From NCBI RefSeq assembly GCF_020883455.1, contig NZ_CP086615.1, positions 2,790,001-2,854,000 on the forward strand: DNA of 64,000 nt. The letters are read 5' to 3'. The stretch comes from Spiribacter halobius (GTDB lineage Bacteria > Pseudomonadota > Gammaproteobacteria > Nitrococcales > Nitrococcaceae). Made by a program: the position numbers and the translations under genes. Of this stretch, positions 7,863 to 44,967 are shown piece after piece (positions within the stretch are counted from its first letter, which is position 1; the number at the start of each line of letters is the position of its first letter). The notes below the pieces were generated by a model. The model did no database searches, was not told where the DNA came from, and worked only from the letters and a program-made list of their open reading frames with translations.

Positions 7863-8312
7863 TAGCCCGCAATTCTCACCGATCCGCGGCTGCGGACGCG
7901 AATCTGGCGGGCAGGCCGGCGTTGTGCTCGGTCCGGGTGCTCGACGTACTGTCGAGTACGCCTAGCGCGCCCGGACTCTCCCGCGCGTTGGGCAGCGCGG
8001 AGCCCTTCCCGCGGGCCTCTGCGCTTCAGAGCGGCGACCTGGCAAGGCGGCGTTCGCAGCGAATGGCCGTAGCCCTTTGCAAGAACGCCAACGCAGTCCA
8101 GGGCGCCGCTCTGAAGCGCCCTCCGGGGCCGCACGGCGCGCGCGCAGCCGGCGTTGCGCTGCTTGACTGTACCTCGGTACAGCGCTGCGCAGCGCGCCTT
8201 GTCTGCACGCGCGCCGTGCGGCCAGAGGCCCGCGGGCAGGGCTCCGCGCTGCCCATCTCCTGCCCGCCATCTCCGCGCCCTCGCTACGCGCATCGGTGAG
8301 AACTGCGGGCTA
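7863..8312. repeat. Nested palindromic element, full copy A (450 bp)
   Basis: Lies between nuoI and nuoJ. The ends are TAGCCCGC and GCGGGCTA, each followed inward by a TCTCACCGAT-like block, so the element has terminal inverted repeats. The long arm (7863-7988) is on the left and the short arm (8256-8312) on the right. Inside are 33-bp inverted repeats (7989-8021 and 8223-8255, one mismatch) around a 201-bp core. The core has a further exact 14-bp inverted pair (8021-8034 and 8106-8119) and small hairpins. The right-end TAG is the nuoI stop codon. No transposase is encoded; short frames inside are not credible genes. Confidence 0.93.
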
Positions 8313-8798
8313 GCGATAGGGCGCGTCGGCAGCGCGGTCGGCGGCGAGCTGGGCCTCGTACTTGTCCCCCAGCGCCAGCAGCTCCTCCTTGTGGATGATC
8401 TGCTCGCCGCGGCGCTCGAAATGGTACTCGTGTATCCGGGTCTCGACGATGGAGTCCACCGGGCAGGACTCCTCGCAGAAGCCGCAGTAGATGCACTTGA
8501 ACAGGTCGATGTCGTAGCGCGTGGTGCGGCGGGTACCGTCCTCCCGCGGCTCGGACTCGATGGTGATGGCCAGCGCCGGGCAGACCGCCTCGCAGAGCTT
8601 GCAGGCGATGCAGCGCTCCTCGCCGTTGGGATAGCGGCGCAGCGCGTGCAGCCCGCGGAAGCGCGGCGACTGCGGCGCCCTCTCCTCCGGGTATTCCAGC
8701 GTGTATTTGGCATCAAAGAGGTGCCGGCCGGTGAGCCGCATGCCCTTGAGCAGCTCGACCAGCAGAAAACTGTTCACGAAGTCGCGTATCGCCTGCAT
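8310..8798 (-). CDS. nuoI: NADH-quinone oxidoreductase subunit I
   Basis: Peripheral-arm ferredoxin-like subunit carrying clusters N6a and N6b. The 162-residue protein has two [4Fe-4S] motifs: [12 protein letters not shown] (Cys63, 66, 69, 73) and [12 protein letters not shown] (Cys102, 105, 108, 112). The ATG at 8798 is preferred because GAGGTG lies 6 nt before it; an in-frame GTG three codons upstream is part of that ribosome-binding site. The TAG stop coincides with the terminal TAG of repeat copy A, so the C-terminus abuts the element directly. Confidence 0.97.
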
Positions 8799-8877
8799 GC
8801 GTTTCACCTCGGGCTCTCGGCCCCTTGCGCGACGCCCGCCCGGCGCCCCGGTGCGGGTCGTGACGGTCAGCCCCGGC

Positions 8878-18620: not shown

Positions 18621-19071
18621 TAGCCCGCGTATCTCACCGATTCGCGAAGCGAGGGCGTGGAGATGGCGGGCAGGAGATGGGCAGCGCGGAACCCTTCCCG
18701 CGGGCCTCTGCGCTTCAGAGCGGCGGCCTGGCAAGGCGGCGTTCGCAGCGAATGGCCGTAGCCCTTTGCAAGAACGCCAACGCAGTCCAGGGCGCCGCTC
18801 TGAAGCGCCCTACGGGGCCGCACAGCGCACGCGCAGCCGGCGTTGCGCTGCTTGACTGTACTCGCTGGTACAGCGCTGCTCAGCGCGCCTTGTCTGCACG
18901 CGCGCTGTGCGGCCAGAGGCCCGCGGGAAGGGTTCCGCGCTGCCCAACGCGCGGGAGAGTCCGGGCGCGCAGGCGTACTCGACAGTACGTCGAGCACCCG
19001 GGCCGAGCGCAACGCCGGCCTGCCCGCCAGATCCGCGCCCGCAGCCGCGGATCGGTGAGATACGCGGGCTA
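18621..19071. repeat. Nested palindromic element, full copy B (451 bp), core inverted relative to copy A
   Basis: Lies between glmM and tpiA. The short arm is on the left (18621-18677) and the long arm on the right (18947-19071), the mirror of copy A. The 33-bp inner inverted repeats (18678-18710 and 18914-18946) match perfectly. The 203-bp core between them runs in the same chromosomal direction as in copy A, so relative to the arms it is inverted. The right-end TAG is the glmM stop codon. By eye the long arm differs from copy A at about 8 of 126 positions. Confidence 0.93.
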
Positions 19072-20473: not shown

Positions 20474-20533
20474 TAGCCCGCCTACCTTACCGAGTCGCGG
20501 CTGCGGCCGCGGATCGGTGAGACAGGCGGGCTA
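20474..20533. repeat. Short palindromic element, copy D (60 bp)
   Basis: Ends TAGCCCGC and GCGGGCTA with inner TTACCGAGTCGCGG / CCGCGGATCGGTGAG. It corresponds to the two outer ends of the long element joined directly, without arms or core, and can fold into one long hairpin. It lies between folP and glmM; its right-end TAG is the folP stop codon. Confidence 0.88.
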
Positions 20534-21367
20534 GGCGTAGGCGGCGACGTAGCTCGCGAGCCGCACGGCGTCCACGGTCTCACGCACGTCATGGGCGCGA
20601 ATGATACGCGCCCCCTGCCAGACCGCCAGCGTCGCCGCCGCCACACTCCCGGCCAGGCGCTCGCCCAGCGGGCGCCCGAGCACCCGGCCTACCAGCGATT
20701 TGCGCGACAGCCCCACCAGCAGCGGCGCCCCAAGCCCGGCGAGGCGCGGCAGCCCGGCGAGCAGCATCGCGTTGTGGGGGTCGGTCTTGCCGAAGCCGAA
20801 ACCGGGATCGAGCAGGATGCGCTCCGCCGGGATGCCGGCGGCCAGGGCGGCGTCCCGGCGCTCCGCCAGGAACGCCGCCACCTCGGCGAGCACATCGTCG
20901 TACTGCGGCGCCTGCTGCATGGTCTTCGGCGTGCCCTGCATGTGCATCAGGCACACGGGCAGGCCACTCGCCGCCGCTGCCTCCATCGCCCCCGGCTCGC
21001 GCAGCGCGCGGACGTCGTTGATGAGCCCGGCCCCGGCGCGGGTGACCGCTGCGATCACCTCCGGCTTGCTGGTATCCACGGAGACGGGCACGGACAGCTC
21101 GGCGGCGAGGGCCTCCACCACCGGCAGCACCCGTCGCAGCTCCTCCTCCACCGGCACCGGATCGGCACCCGGACGCGTGGACTCGCCGCCGACGTCGATG
21201 ATGGCCGCGCCATCCTCGACCATCGCCCGGGCCCGGGCGATGGCGGCCTCGGCCGCAATGAAGTCACCCCCGTCGGAGAAGGAGTCGGGGGTGACGTTGA
21301 GTACGCCCATGACGCAGGGCTGCGTCAGGTCGACGGCGAATCGGCCGCACTGGAGCCGGGACAGCAC
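20531..21367 (-). CDS. folP: Dihydropteroate synthase
   Basis: Condenses p-aminobenzoate with hydroxymethyl-dihydropterin pyrophosphate in folate synthesis; target of sulfonamides. The GTG start at 21367 gives 278 residues and lies 13 nt after the ftsH stop; longer frames would run into ftsH. Motifs: MGVLNVTPDSFSDGG, GGESTRPGA, DPGFGFGKT and GLSRKSLVGR. The stop TAG is the end of repeat copy D. Co-transcribed with ftsH and probably glmM. Confidence 0.95.
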   Translation of the reverse strand: MLSRLQCGRFAVDLTQPCVMGVLNVTPDSFSDGGDFIAAEAAIARARAMVEDGAAIIDVGGESTRPGADPVPVEEELRRVLPVVEALAAELSVPVSVDTSKPEVIAAVTRAGAGLINDVRALREPGAMEAAAASGLPVCLMHMQGTPKTMQQAPQYDDVLAEVAAFLAERRDAALAAGIPAERILLDPGFGFGKTDPHNAMLLAGLPRLAGLGAPLLVGLSRKSLVGRVLGRPLGERLAGSVAAATLAVWQGARIIRAHDVRETVDAVRLASYVAAYA

Positions 21368-21380
21368 GCGCTGCCCCGCG

Positions 21381-23312
<1,932 letters not shown>

Positions 23313-36254: not shown

Positions 36255-37958
36255 TCACTCCCTCTGCGGTGTCTGCGTGTGGGTATCCGTCTTCGCCACC
36301 GGCTCCACCTTGAGCCGCAGGCCCTGCATGTCGACGACGCGCACTATGTCCCCCGGCGCCAGTGCCGCGTCCGAGTCCGCCAGCCAGCTCTCGCCCTCGA
36401 TGCGCACCCGCAGCGGCGGCCCGGCCTGCAGGACCTCGCCCTCGCCGCCAAGCATATGCTCCGCGCCGGCGACGCCGCGTCGCTGGAAGGCGCGCGCCGC
36501 CAGCAGCGCGGTGCCGAGAAAGAGCACCAGGCTCGCCGCCGTGACGCCGCCCACCAGCATCATCGACAGCTGAAAGCCTTCCCCCTCGGCATCGAACAGC
36601 AGCACGGAGCCGAAGGCGAAGGCGATGACCCCGCCTACGCCCAGCGCACCGAAGGATGGCACGAGGGCTTCGGCGATCATGAACAGAATACCGAGCAGGA
36701 TGAGCCCGAGGCCCGCGTAGTTCACCGGTAGCGCCTGGAAGGCGAACAGCGCGAGCAGCAGGCAGATGCCGCCGAGCACGCCGGGGACCAGCGAGCCGGG
36801 GTTGGCCAGCTCGAAGATCAGCCCGTAGATGCCCACCAGCATGAGGATGTAGGCCACGTTGGGGTTGGTGATTACGGACAGCAGCTCGGTACGCCAGTCC
36901 GGCGGCCGGTCTTCCACGGTGGCGCCGGCGAGGGCGAGGCTGCGGGACTCGCCGCCGATGCTCACCTCGCGGCCGTCGGCGGCGGCCAGCAGCGCGGCAC
37001 TGTCCGGCGCCACCAGGTCGATGACGTCCTGCTCCAGCGCCGCGGAATAGGACAGGCTCACCGACTCCCGCACGGCGCGCTCGGCCCACTCGGCGTTGCG
37101 ACCCCGCAGCTCCGCCAGGGAGCGGATATAGGCGACGGCGTCATTGATCATCTTGCGCTCCATCGCCGAACCGCCCTGGTCTGCGCCCTCATCGGCGCCG
37201 CCCTGGCTGTCTTCCGCGGCCTCGCCGTCGCCGCCACTCTCACCGGCACCGCTGCCCTCGCCACTGCCGGCGCTGCCATCACCCTCGCCCTCACCGGCCG
37301 GCTGATCACCTCCGGGCTGATCACCTCCGGGCTGATCACCGCCCGGCGTGCCAGGCATGCCGCCGATGCGCACCGGCGTCGCGGCACCGAGGTTGGTGCC
37401 CGGCGCCATGGCCGCCACGTGGCTGGCGTAGAGGATGTAGGTGCCGGCGCTGGCCGCCCGCGCCCCGGACGGGGCCACGTAGCCGATGACCGGCACCGGC
37501 GAGGCCAGTATGTCGCGCACGATCTGGCGCATGGCGCTGTCCAGGCCGCCGGGCGTGTCCATCCGCAGGATCACGGCCTCGGCGTCGGCCGCAGCGGCCT
37601 CCTCGAGCCCGTCACTGACATAGTTCGCCGTCACCGGGCCGATGGCCCCGTCGATGGTGAGCTGATGTACCACCTGGCCATGCGCCGGCAGGGACAGCAG
37701 CAGAAGCCCAAAGACGGCGGCGAGCCCGCCTATCCCACCGATCCGCGGCTGCGGTCGCGGATCTGGCGGGCAGTCCGGCGTTGCGCTGCTTGACTGTACC
37801 GCGGTACAGCGCTGCGCAGCGCGCCTTGTCTGCACGCGCGCTGTGCGGCCAGAGGCCCGCGGGAAGGGTTCCGCGCTGCCCCTCTCCTGCCCGCCATCTC
37901 CACGCCCTCGCTGCGCGAATAGGTGAGATATGCGGGCTAGCACTGGGCGGAATGGCAT
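36255..37958 (-). CDS. NfeD-type membrane serine protease with an in-frame repeat insertion in its leader
   Basis: Long-form NfeD protein: ClpP/SppA-like serine protease domain ([17 protein letters not shown], then [13 protein letters not shown] with the catalytic Ser), a Gly/Glu/Asp-rich linker with GGDQP repeats, membrane helices (about residues 390-490) and a C-terminal OB domain. The ATG at 37958 has GGGAG 5 nt upstream. After MPFRPV, 72 residues come from repeat copy C; then [16 protein letters not shown] continues a classic signal peptide. Without the insertion the N-terminus would be a normal signal sequence. The frame is intact, so the gene may still be expressed, but export with the extension is uncertain. 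Confidence 0.85.
37298..37344. repeat. 15-bp coding tandem repeat in the NfeD-type gene
   Basis: Three units (GGCTGATCACCTCCG type, last one slightly changed) encode GGDQP three times in the linker of the protease. Likely length-variable by slippage. Confidence 0.8.
37723..37939. repeat. Palindromic element, deletion derivative copy C (about 217 bp), inside a coding region
   Basis: Right end GCGGGCTA with the short arm, then one 33-bp inner repeat (GGGAAGGGTTCC region) and about 80 bp of core; the left end (GAGCCCGCC) and about 55 bp of long arm are joined to the core at a shared CCGGCGTTGCGCT sequence. Orientation of arms and core is as in copy A. It is inserted in frame (216 nt, 72 codons) in the NfeD-type gene. 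Confidence 0.9.
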
Positions 37959-38070
37959 GGTGGCTCCCGGGTTGCGCAGCCGGGACGGACGGCGTCCGCC
38001 CCTAACCTTTCCGATCGCCGCGACCCGGCCCCGGTTCCATGTCGCGGCCCGCCTTCCCCACTCGTGGCGA

Positions 38071-42791: not shown

Positions 42792-42851
42792 CAGCCCGTC
42801 CTTACCGCCGCTCCGCGGCTGCGGGCGCGGACCGGTGAGATGGGCGGGCTA
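42792..42851. repeat. Short palindromic element, copy E (60 bp)
   Basis: CAGCCCGTCC at the left and GGCGGGCTA at the right, with GCTCCGCGGCTGCGGGCGCGG in the middle part. Same length and plan as copy D. Its right-end TAG is the stop codon of rodZ. It fills the rodZ-hisS gap. Confidence 0.85.
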
Positions 42852-44210
42852 GGGGGAGCCCAGGGTGAAGCGGGCGACGCGGTCGCGGGCGTACTGTTCC
42901 AGGGGCACCGACTCGCCCTCGCGCTCCAGGCTCACGTTCTGCGTATCGCCCACCACGATCTCGAACGGCGGCACGCCGGCAACCTCGCGCACGCCGCCCT
43001 CCTCGAGGCCGAACAGCAGCCGCTCGCCGCGGGCATCCCGGACCTCCATCCAGGACTCGCCGCTGAAACTGAAGCGCAGCGTTTCCTGATCCTCGGCCGC
43101 CGGGGCGCCCTGGGTGTCGCCGCCCTGCCCGTCAGCCGGGGCCTCGGTGCCGTCGGCGCCGGCACCCGGGCGCGTCGTTCCCTCGTCGGCCTCGCCGGCC
43201 AGCAGGGAATCCGGTTCGACGGGTGCGGCCCCGCTGTCTGCCGGGGCGTCGCCACCGGATGTTCCGGCGGTGGCTGCACTGTCGTCACCCGCGCGGCGGC
43301 GCGGCATCGCCTCGGCCGGCGGTGCCGCGTCGCCGAGGCGGGGCTCCGCCGCCGGGGCCTCCGGTGCCGTCGTGTCGGGGCCTGCGGCCTCGTCGTCGGC
43401 CAGCTCCTCCGGCGCGGGGGATAGCCCACCGCCATCCGACGCCTCGGGGGCATTCGCATCGGCGTTGTCGCTGTCCCCCGCCGCCGGCGGCTCCACCAGC
43501 TCCGGGTCGAATACCGGCTGCTCCGCGGTGCGCCCCGACGCTGCGGTATTGCCATCGACAGGCGGCGGCTCACGCGCGCTCTCGCTGCTGATGCCGGTTT
43601 CCGGCTCCGCGGCCGTGCTGCCGTCCGTACGGGGGTCCGGCGCCGCGTCAGCGTCGGCGGTGGAATCGGACGCCTCCGGCGCCAGCGCGAGGTTGCCGTC
43701 GCCGTCAGCGGACTCGGTGGCCGGCCCGCTGCCCAGCAGCCGATCGAGCCCCGGCAGTGACCAGTCCCGCTGCTGCAGCAGCCAGGCACCGCCGCCCACC
43801 CCGCCGATGACCAGCACCAGCGCCAGGCTCACGGCGAACAGACCGCCGCTGCGACGACGCACGGCGGGCGTCGGGGCCGGGGCGGTGCCGGCATCGCCGA
43901 CACTGGGCGTCAGCGGTCGGGTGCCGTCGGAGACGCCCATGGCGTCGAACCGCTTCAGGACCTCGTCGTCCGGCAGCTCGAGCAGCCGCGCATAGGCCCG
44001 CAGGTAGCCACGCACGAACGTCACCGGCGGCAGGCCGGCGTAGTCGTCCCGCTCCAGGGCGTCGATGGTACGGGCGTCCAGATGCAGGCCGTCGGCGACA
44101 TCGCCCACGCTCAGCTCCCGGCGCAGGCGCTGGTCCCGCAGCAGCCGCCCGGGGCCCTGTCGTGGCCGGGCGCTCGCCGTCTCCCCCACTTGCGGTTCAG
44201 AGTCGGCCAT
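42849..44210 (-). CDS. rodZ: Cytoskeleton protein RodZ
   Basis: Bitopic protein that links MreB to the cell-wall elongation machinery. 453 residues from the ATG at 44210: cytoplasmic helix-turn-helix domain (about 20-85, LLRDQRLRRELSVGDVADGL), one membrane helix (about 122-142), a very long acidic Ala/Pro/Glu/Asp/Thr-rich periplasmic linker (about 150-375), and the DUF4115 domain (about 375-450, LRFSFSGESWMEVRDARGER). The linker is much longer than in E. coli. Overlaps pilF by 14 nt; the TAG stop is the end of repeat copy E. Confidence 0.93.
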   Translation of the reverse strand: MADSEPQVGETASARPRQGPGRLLRDQRLRRELSVGDVADGLHLDARTIDALERDDYAGLPPVTFVRGYLRAYARLLELPDDEVLKRFDAMGVSDGTRPLTPSVGDAGTAPAPTPAVRRRSGGLFAVSLALVLVIGGVGGGAWLLQQRDWSLPGLDRLLGSGPATESADGDGNLALAPEASDSTADADAAPDPRTDGSTAAEPETGISSESAREPPPVDGNTAASGRTAEQPVFDPELVEPPAAGDSDNADANAPEASDGGGLSPAPEELADDEAAGPDTTAPEAPAAEPRLGDAAPPAEAMPRRRAGDDSAATAGTSGGDAPADSGAAPVEPDSLLAGEADEGTTRPGAGADGTEAPADGQGGDTQGAPAAEDQETLRFSFSGESWMEVRDARGERLLFGLEEGGVREVAGVPPFEIVVGDTQNVSLEREGESVPLEQYARDRVARFTLGSP

Positions 44211-44967
44211 TGCGTTCCCATTCCAGGAGGCGCGCCGCCTCCTCGGATTCCGGATAGCGCTGGCGCAACAGCAGGCTGTAGCTCGCCAGTCGGTCGCGAT
44301 CGTCAGTGGCCGCCGCAAGGCGGATACCCACCCAGAGTGACTCCGGCGTCTGCCGGTTCACCGCGTCGAGGTAGCGCTCGTAGAAGGCCCGGGCCGAGAG
44401 CGAGTCGCCGTCGTCCAGGCGCAGCGCCGCCAGGTTCAGCAGCGCCGTCGGGAAGCGCGGGTTGCGCTGCAGCGCCGCCCGGAAGTAATCCTCGGCCTCG
44501 GCCTTCTGGCCGTCCTGCAGCGCGCAGCGCCCGGCGTTGGTCAGCGGCACTTCCGGGCGCTCGTAGAGCGGATTGTCGGCGGCGCGCTCGAAGAGCTCCT
44601 GCGCCCGCTCCCGTTCGCCCCGGGCGCAGAGGAAGCGCCCGAAGTTGTTGAGCGCCGCGCCGTTCTCCGGGTCCAGGCGGACCGCCTGCTGATAGTAGCG
44701 GCGGGCCTGGTCGGCTTCATCGAGCTGGTTGTAGATCTCGGCGGTCACCATGTGCGCCGGCGAGGAGTCGCCATCCTGCTCGACCGCCTTCTGCGCCTTG
44801 CGCAGCGCCTCCTGCAGGTTCCCCTGCTGGAGGTAGCGGATGGCAAGCTGGGTGTTCGCCTCGGAGGCGCGGGCGGCCTGCTCGGACGTCATCGTCGGGT
44901 TGCCGGTGGTGGCGCAGCCGGCGAGCAGCGCCAGCAGCACCAGTACCAGGGGTGCGAGCCGCCTCAT
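44197..44967 (-). CDS. pilF: Type IV pilus biogenesis/stability lipoprotein PilF (PilW)
   Basis: TPR lipoprotein that helps assemble the PilQ secretin, and in genomes of this order also kept in the rodZ cluster. 256 residues: signal peptide with lipobox LLAGC (Cys18), then about six TPR units (for example [40 protein letters not shown]). It overlaps rlmN by 4 nt (ATGA) and rodZ by 14 nt. Confidence 0.93.

Follow-up and report, generated by a model that had tools for sequence, protein, structure and literature searches.

The signal peptide of an NfeD-type membrane protease in Spiribacter halobius is interrupted by a palindromic repeat, which lies in frame between the n-region and the hydrophobic core. 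We think it probable that this copy is a non-autonomous, MITE-like palindromic element that sits at a CTAG site, is translated through, and is tolerated in the n-region of the signal. A mobile repeat found within a gene is commonly regarded as damage, or as an oddity of Rickettsia. The family to which the nfeD copy belongs suggests instead two rules for harmless entry into a dense genome: a repeat may rebuild a stop codon, or it may add a multiple of three nucleotides where the protein tolerates the addition. Its insertions in leaders amount to as many as seven natural experiments on the length of n-region that the export system accepts. For genes of this kind we expect that annotation software may choose the wrong start codon, and that programs predicting export may overlook the proteins.

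The nfeD gene and its leader

By the window we mean the whole 64,000-nucleotide stretch of S. halobius DNA that we analysed. The features of the host gene, in window positions, are the following.

36255-37958, minus strand: open reading frame of the NfeD1b-type membrane protease (the host), 567 aa with the insert and 495 aa without it
37964-37968, minus strand: Shine-Dalgarno-like GGGAG 5' of the nfeD ATG, read from the sequence
37941-37958, minus strand: native n-region codons MPFRPV, with the ATG at 37956-37958, from the sequence and the ortholog alignment
37938-37940, minus strand: CTA Leu codon at the left junction, the first three bases of the CTAG site
37724-37939, minus strand: palindromic element, 216 nt or 72 codons, stop-free in the host frame
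37722-37723, minus strand: right-hand TA, the apparent duplicate, now TC
37677-37724, minus strand: hydrophobic core and cleavage region, unbroken 3' of the element (translation, alignment and predicted helix 77-88)

The host carries the Pfam domains NfeD1b_N (the N-terminal, ClpP-like domain), NfeD_membrane and NfeD (C-terminal), and thus belongs to the NfeD1b class. It aligns to PH1510 (2deo) on both sides of a variable linker, and the aligned positions include the Ser in ASAGTYI and the Lys in KMIND, which we take to be the catalytic residues. The linker (37150-37345, minus strand) is an expanded, Gly/Asp/Glu-rich segment that opens with three GGDQP repeats, and its length varies widely among orthologs.

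The element enters at codon 7, at a CTAG site between n-region and hydrophobic core, and it leaves the start codon, the ribosome-binding site, the core and the protease body intact. A first-pass annotation of this DNA had proposed that a repeat is inserted in frame in an NfeD-type protease leader; the geometry, the open frame and the ortholog alignment all bear it out. The ATG at 37958, its ribosome-binding site, MPFRPV and the 72 stop-free codons followed by the core can be read in the sequence just as that annotation described them, and the 216 nt that it took to be removable are those from 37939 to 37724, that is, 72 codons at the apparent original CTAG. The insert is indeed a repeat, for it matches other copies in the window, direct or inverted, at 93-99% over parts. 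The suggestion that the export signal is split holds in one sense only: the element parts the n-region from the core, but the core itself is unbroken and the element lies just 5' of it. Since TC now stands in place of the right-hand TA, the site before insertion would have been a Leu codon, either CTA or CTC, and its reconstruction reads GTG CTA/CTC GCC, or V-L-A.

None of the 33 aligned NfeD orthologs has residues matching the insert; that is, the 72-residue N-terminus is not shared by these relatives, as the first-pass annotation had anticipated. The alignment comprises 33 of the 39 orthologs prepared, six having been left out because the ATG rule had cut their leader. The leader of the nearest full-length relative (L032) reads MKLRVLSAILLVLTLAMPASAASVHKLVIDGSIGP and is element-free, and one genome (G004) bears the element elsewhere, yet its NfeD leader is plain: MVWLRLVCLWLLLASGVCAAAGD. 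Natural n-regions reach ~20 residues in three orthologs (L052, L061 and L063), if their starts are rightly chosen.

With the insert, the n-region of the NfeD precursor spans 78 residues, of which 13 are Lys or Arg and 5 are Asp or Glu, and the added segment is hydrophilic. An AlphaFold model of the precursor (mean pLDDT 73, pTM 0.60) is mostly confident over the protease domain, falls below pLDDT 50 at residues 1-30 and 34-63, and places a helix at 77-88 that covers the core (the ten-residue blocks there average 65 and 86). Low confidence over the insert is expected, since the insert is without homologs in the alignment. The element-encoded n-region is thus predicted to be disordered, with the helix kept over the core. 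In the nfeD mRNA the terminal arms of the element pair, and a very strong hairpin begins ~18 nt past the ATG (-151 kcal/mol, z -4.4), which could lower translation. We infer that the element-encoded segment of NfeD is made as protein.

The element family and its target site

The window holds further copies of the element, among them the following.

7863-8312: composite copy, TA to TA, with an insert of 448 nt; one end is the TAG stop of a predicted gene at 8310-8807 (minus strand)
18621-19071: composite copy, TA to TA, with an insert of 449 nt
20474-20533: short hairpin copy; one end is the TAG stop of a predicted gene at 20531-21457 (minus strand)
42792-42851: short hairpin copy whose left TA reads CA; one end is the TAG stop of a predicted gene at 42849-44318 (minus strand)

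Within the two composites lies a further palindrome (CGCTCTGAAGCG...), which looks like a second element sitting inside the first.

Genome-wide, 84 pieces, some overlapping, match the nfeD element at E<=0.001. Members of the family are bounded by the termini TAGCCCGC...GCGGGCTA, and the 21-nt terminus TAGCCCGCNTATCTCACCGAT, allowing at most 3 mismatches, matches at 253 places in 4.17 Mb, as compared with none for a reversed-pattern control. From the places listed (the first 100 of the 253 terminus matches, together with other match lists) we built 98 regions, in which termini could be paired 73 times; once a single 96-nt pair attributed to chance is set aside, 72 copies remain, which form a sample and not an exhaustive set. 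Their inserts, measured from the TA to just before the second TA, are 180 nt long in 38 copies, 58 nt in 16 and 447-449 nt in six; the remaining 12 lengths are single, and include 216 (nfeD) and 171. The family is therefore short, repeated and bounded by terminal inverted repeats, as MITEs are.

The two arms of a copy resemble each other more closely than arms taken from different copies do: among 70 copies, 1546 of 1680 positions are identical, compared with a mean of 1467 and a maximum of 1493 in 2000 shuffles. At arm positions 22 and 24 variation is mostly one-sided (in 16 and 41 copies, respectively), and position 1, the T of the TA, never varies on both. This pattern fits a duplicated target TA together with arms that are kept complementary by hairpin function or by the mode of copying. 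In the same 70 copies, left and right arms often share matching variants at positions 8, 9, 11 and 12.

The target site is CTAG. Read inward, CTAG stands at 97 of the 144 element ends and GTAG at 5, and in 47 of the 72 copies the TA...TA unit is flanked by C and G, which fits duplication of TA at CTAG, the empty sites being known at the protein level. CTAG is also rare in this DNA. The window contains 20 occurrences, roughly ninefold fewer than the 178 expected from base composition, and in a sample of 387,510 bases from the S. halobius genome (G000) there are 227 as against 1037 expected, of which 122 are element ends. Non-element CTAGs in a coding context in this sample fall at stop codons (22), in CTA-G phase (23) or in the third phase (4).

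How, then, do element ends meet genes? Of the 144 ends, 98 lie below our coding threshold and 46 touch clearly coding DNA; 38 of these 46 are in stop-codon phase (the element's TAG or a variant of it), five in CTA phase and three in the third. Where an end abuts coding DNA, therefore, the element is more often found at a stop codon than in a reading frame. For one gene, at 1053680, the reading frame enters the element in the CTA frame and hits a TGA inside it.

We also considered whether ends that read outward as GGTGAGATATG donate start codons. Coding frames begin at 7 of 79 such ATG ends and at 6 of 65 others; since frames start as often without an element ATG, we make no general claim of start donation. 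An ATG in a GGTGAGATATG-like end may nonetheless start an MlaC gene (541598; MRARLLLGLWLLLALSPALAED; L113:673-1311, minus strand), and another may start an alpha/beta hydrolase gene (3418098; L176:1351-2166, plus strand).

The openness of the element deserves caution. In the 38 copies of 180 nt the CTA phase is open on one strand in 36 and on the other in 19; shuffled interiors are open in 45-63%, against which the real openness is unremarkable. Because the element is open by nature, an open frame is weak evidence of selection, and we regard it as a lucky property and not as proof. TGA is absent from forward-read hosts with 180-nt copies (0 of 4, versus 19 of 34), a difference that is not significant (p=0.105).

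Concerning the agent that moves the element, IS630 transposases prefer CTAG/TA targets. There are no matches to DDE_3, the IS630-type transposase domain, in G000, G004 or G047, and no transposase-like ORF was evident by eye near unpaired termini in four regions. G000 has three matches to Y1_Tnp (loci L192-L194), where an element terminus is absent, the best candidate having 7 mismatches of 20. Two of the Y1_Tnp genes, at L192 and L193 (G000:C1:445187-446140), are neighbours that seem to have an identical N-terminal part of ~200 residues, one ORF being shorter.

These data bear on the possibility that the element, instead of being a MITE that duplicates TA, is a GTAG-type REP or BIME moved by a tyrosine transposase of the RAYT kind. 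Several features of the element, namely hairpin termini with alternative complementary stem bases, donation of TAG stops and intragenic copies, are reported for GTAG REPs in excerpts of PMC3733652, and the presence of Y1_Tnp genes in the genome would suit a RAYT. The predominance of CTAG over GTAG at the ends, the C and G flanks, the Y1_Tnp loci devoid of termini and the single length shared by 38 of 72 copies speak against this reading. We consider this reading unlikely, if worth taking seriously, and favor the MITE-like element at CTAG.

In-frame hosts and their leaders

We sought hosts in the 72 copies and in 13 further places (17 rows, four of which repeat copies among the 72). Twelve genes are read through the element without a stop, all in CTA phase, and Pfam names 11 of them; the family thus shares with Rickettsia palindromic elements (RPE) the in-frame insertion of a palindrome into conserved genes. 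In five hosts the element is interior: a CopA-type ATPase, an ABC transporter, a MOSC protein, an ArsC-like protein and, near the C-terminus, an M48 protease. The count includes three less-supported hosts, namely MOSC, whose Pfam match lies mainly past the element, M48, with 22 residues past the element as judged by eye, and the L108 lipoprotein, with no Pfam match; it leaves out the L231 hydrolase, where the element lies at or before the start.

Several candidates were rejected. By eye, the NIF3 (L125), MazG-like (L163), Iron_traffic (L225), ABC-F-like (L235) and GST-like (L142) genes, all of them named partly by eye as well, likely start past the element; the ORFs at L240, L243 and L163 (plus strand) are antisense or spurious, and none has a Pfam family.

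Empty sites are known at the protein level for CopA, the ArsC-like protein and NfeD. Against its solved relative, the CopA-type host aligns over 55-427 and then 504-698, and the ArsC-like host over 34-104 and then 168-201 (template 76 then 82), the element being skipped in both; no solved chain matched the MOSC host query.

In the other seven hosts the element lies in the leader. These are NfeD, an M16 peptidase, a chalcone-isomerase-like (CHI-like) protein, an MliC lipoprotein, the L108 lipoprotein, a TonB receptor and CsiV; the placement that the first-pass annotation saw in NfeD is thus one case among seven. Each of the seven has an upstream start, a Shine-Dalgarno-like sequence (by eye) and an intact core directly 3' of the element. 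For example, the M16 leader reads MKQWQTVLAA-(57 codons)-LALLLAGAASAQ, the CHI-like leader MIRTVL-(60 codons)-LGLGFAAAPALG, and a lipoprotein leader MRGFPAV-(60 codons)-LVVIAVVLAGC. CsiV holds a partial element, and its upstream ATG overlaps the stop of the preceding ORF as ATGA. Signal peptides and gene starts were assigned by eye. Signal-peptide placement occurs in 7 of 12 in-frame hosts, as compared with 1 of 24 in-phase CTAG sites that lack the element (Fisher p=6e-4), a comparison that is small and partly by eye; the 24 comprise 23 sites and a BamB-like site, in a sample drawn mostly from DNA around element copies.

Our preferred account of these observations is as follows. The element, a selfish insertion, would have reached nfeD by transposition with duplication of TA. 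Translation would begin at the native ATG and continue across the element, so that the precursor would carry an Arg-rich, disordered n-region of ~78 residues before an ordinary Sec core. The export machinery would still recognise the core, and signal peptidase would remove core and insert together, so that the mature protease would be unchanged. In general, a hit at a TAG stop codon would lead the element to rebuild the stop, while at a rare CTA Leu codon a 3n element, mostly open in CTA phase, would add a segment (60 or 72 codons). The family would persist because its sites are mostly harmless, and it would recur at the junction of n-region and core because this junction tolerates an added segment well. 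For the host, the element is most likely neutral to mildly costly.

A bolder version, according to which the n-region/core junction is privileged for the element, and several envelope-protein leaders have been rebuilt, through hits at CTAG in Leu codons, with long Arg-rich n-regions that survive translation and alter targeting or amount, perhaps in a shared way, seems to us distinctly unlikely.

It is important to ask where translation begins, because the element might instead be 5' untranslated DNA, with the true start inside or after it. Many ORFs with an N-terminal REP may start downstream, according to excerpts of PMC3733652, and in six of the seven leaders, CsiV being the exception, the element contains an in-frame GTG or TTG; five leaders read the element on the other strand than NfeD and have both codons inside. 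Two leaders are ambiguous: the L108 lipoprotein has GTG codons directly 3' of the element, and the TonB receptor has a GTG start with a later TTG and GTG. On the other hand, the stretch that runs from the 3' end of the element through the core is free of in-frame ATG, GTG and TTG codons in NfeD, M16, CHI-like and MliC, and in CsiV it has a single one, an ATG within the latter half of the core. The native nfeD ATG, moreover, has a good Shine-Dalgarno sequence and matches the ortholog start, and the start of CsiV overlaps the preceding stop. For nfeD, a start downstream of the element, which the first-pass annotation had named as the observation that would overturn it, is accordingly unlikely, but a single GTG does lie within the element, at precursor residue 42; this codon could start a shorter leader, and a clear Shine-Dalgarno sequence is not visible before it. 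A start inside the element would still yield element-encoded residues. We therefore judge the untranslated reading quite improbable, and retain translation from the native ATG through the element.

Very unlikely, too, is a young pseudogene, in which the insertion killed or strongly reduced nfeD and the open frame is meaningless. The strong mRNA hairpin near the start and the 72 extra leader residues would suit such a gene; yet 82 columns are invariant across 34 aligned NfeD sequences, the S. halobius copy included, among them the Ser and Lys aligned with PH1510, and six other leaders have the same arrangement. A further point is weak: among full-length copies within genes, those of a length other than 180 nt measure 171 and 216, both multiples of three, whereas copies elsewhere include multiples of three (48, 150, 198, 222, 447) and others (172, 184, 239, 353, 448, 449).

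That the leaders were co-opted, an Arg-rich n-region being kept as useful for its effect on the targeting or timing of export, is highly improbable: seven exported proteins, the excess over in-phase CTAG sites, and the exceptionally long signal sequences of autotransporters (excerpts of PMC2805444) lend it some appeal, but the element is read in both directions, giving different residues, and the insert is not shared by relatives of the three hosts looked at, NfeD, M16 and CHI-like, being found by eye in the leader at 0 of 13 other loci for each of the latter two.

Known repeats and other genomes

In-frame fusions of MITEs, of which RPE are the extreme case, and the reuse of repeats as stop codons are already known. 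In the open-access literature we found no description of a repeat inserting again and again where the n-region of a signal peptide meets its core.

RPE are short palindromes that lie in frame in many unrelated protein genes (excerpts of PMC10969869 and PMC2229807), and a gmk with an RPE is translated and active (excerpts of PMC2229807). They measure 105-146 bp (excerpts of PMC2229807), whereas the copies described here are mostly 180, 58 or ~448 nt long, and we liken the two by description, not by sequence. The Spiribacter family differs further in its CTAG site, its GC-rich gammaproteobacterial genome, and its large share of stop codons where it touches genes. The first-pass annotation's comparison with RPE survives as a statement about how the element works, and we claim no descent.

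Among MITEs, excerpts of PMC2229807 describe open frames fused to host genes for ERIC/RU-1, YPAL/RU-2 and Correia elements, with terminal inverted repeats and a terminal TA in ERIC and Correia, all as seen here. The closest precedent is YPO1552 of Yersinia, in which RU-2 forms part of a signal peptide (excerpts of PMC2229807); in that case the product of the element is hydrophobic and partly forms the signal, whereas the Spiribacter element is hydrophilic and extends the n-region of signals that conserved genes already possessed. RUP, present in 108 copies and thought to be driven by IS630-Spn1, likewise has terminal inverted repeats and a TA target, but each of its six frames contains stops and an IS partner has been proposed for it (excerpts of PMC2229807), whereas the Spiribacter family is mostly open in CTA phase and no DDE_3 was found in the three carrier genomes.

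Repeats that supply stops offer a second comparison. The termini of GTAG REPs often provide a TAG stop, and some copies lie in ORFs (excerpts of PMC3733652). These REPs are units of 20-40 bp with GTAG at one end and are linked to RAYTs (excerpts of PMC3733652); the Spiribacter element, by contrast, is symmetric, ends in CTAG in the majority of cases and is commonly 180 nt long, and no link to a RAYT was found. Pneumococcal BOX encodes the stop codon of 36 CDSs (excerpts of PMC3049150) and differs in its boxA/boxC-type modules and its species, the comparison again being one of description. In short, the element behaves as an RPE does, resembles a MITE placed at CTAG, and fails the tests of a GTAG REP.

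The translated element was found in three of 54 genomes of the order, our own included: G000 (62 matches), G004 (2) and G047 (111). A DNA search of 59 genomes, again including our own, matched seven, these three and four others with a single weak partial match each. The genus is represented by one genome. G047 belongs to another family of the same order, and in 40 of its regions 47 of 50 copies are exactly 180 nt long. Eighty of their 100 ends lie below the coding threshold, and the remaining 20 comprise 18 at stop codons, two in the third phase and none in CTA phase; this 50-copy sample thus does not replicate the in-frame hosts, one possible case apart. The elements of G047 and G000 agree at 43-52% of residues among the matches listed, and at 68-74% of DNA positions over pieces longer than 100 nt, a divergence that we judge to be no more than drift would give. 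At L301:1002-1181 in G047, a Maf-like gene (by eye) seems to be an in-frame host after MSESSAR, and a GTG start directly 3' of the element is also possible.
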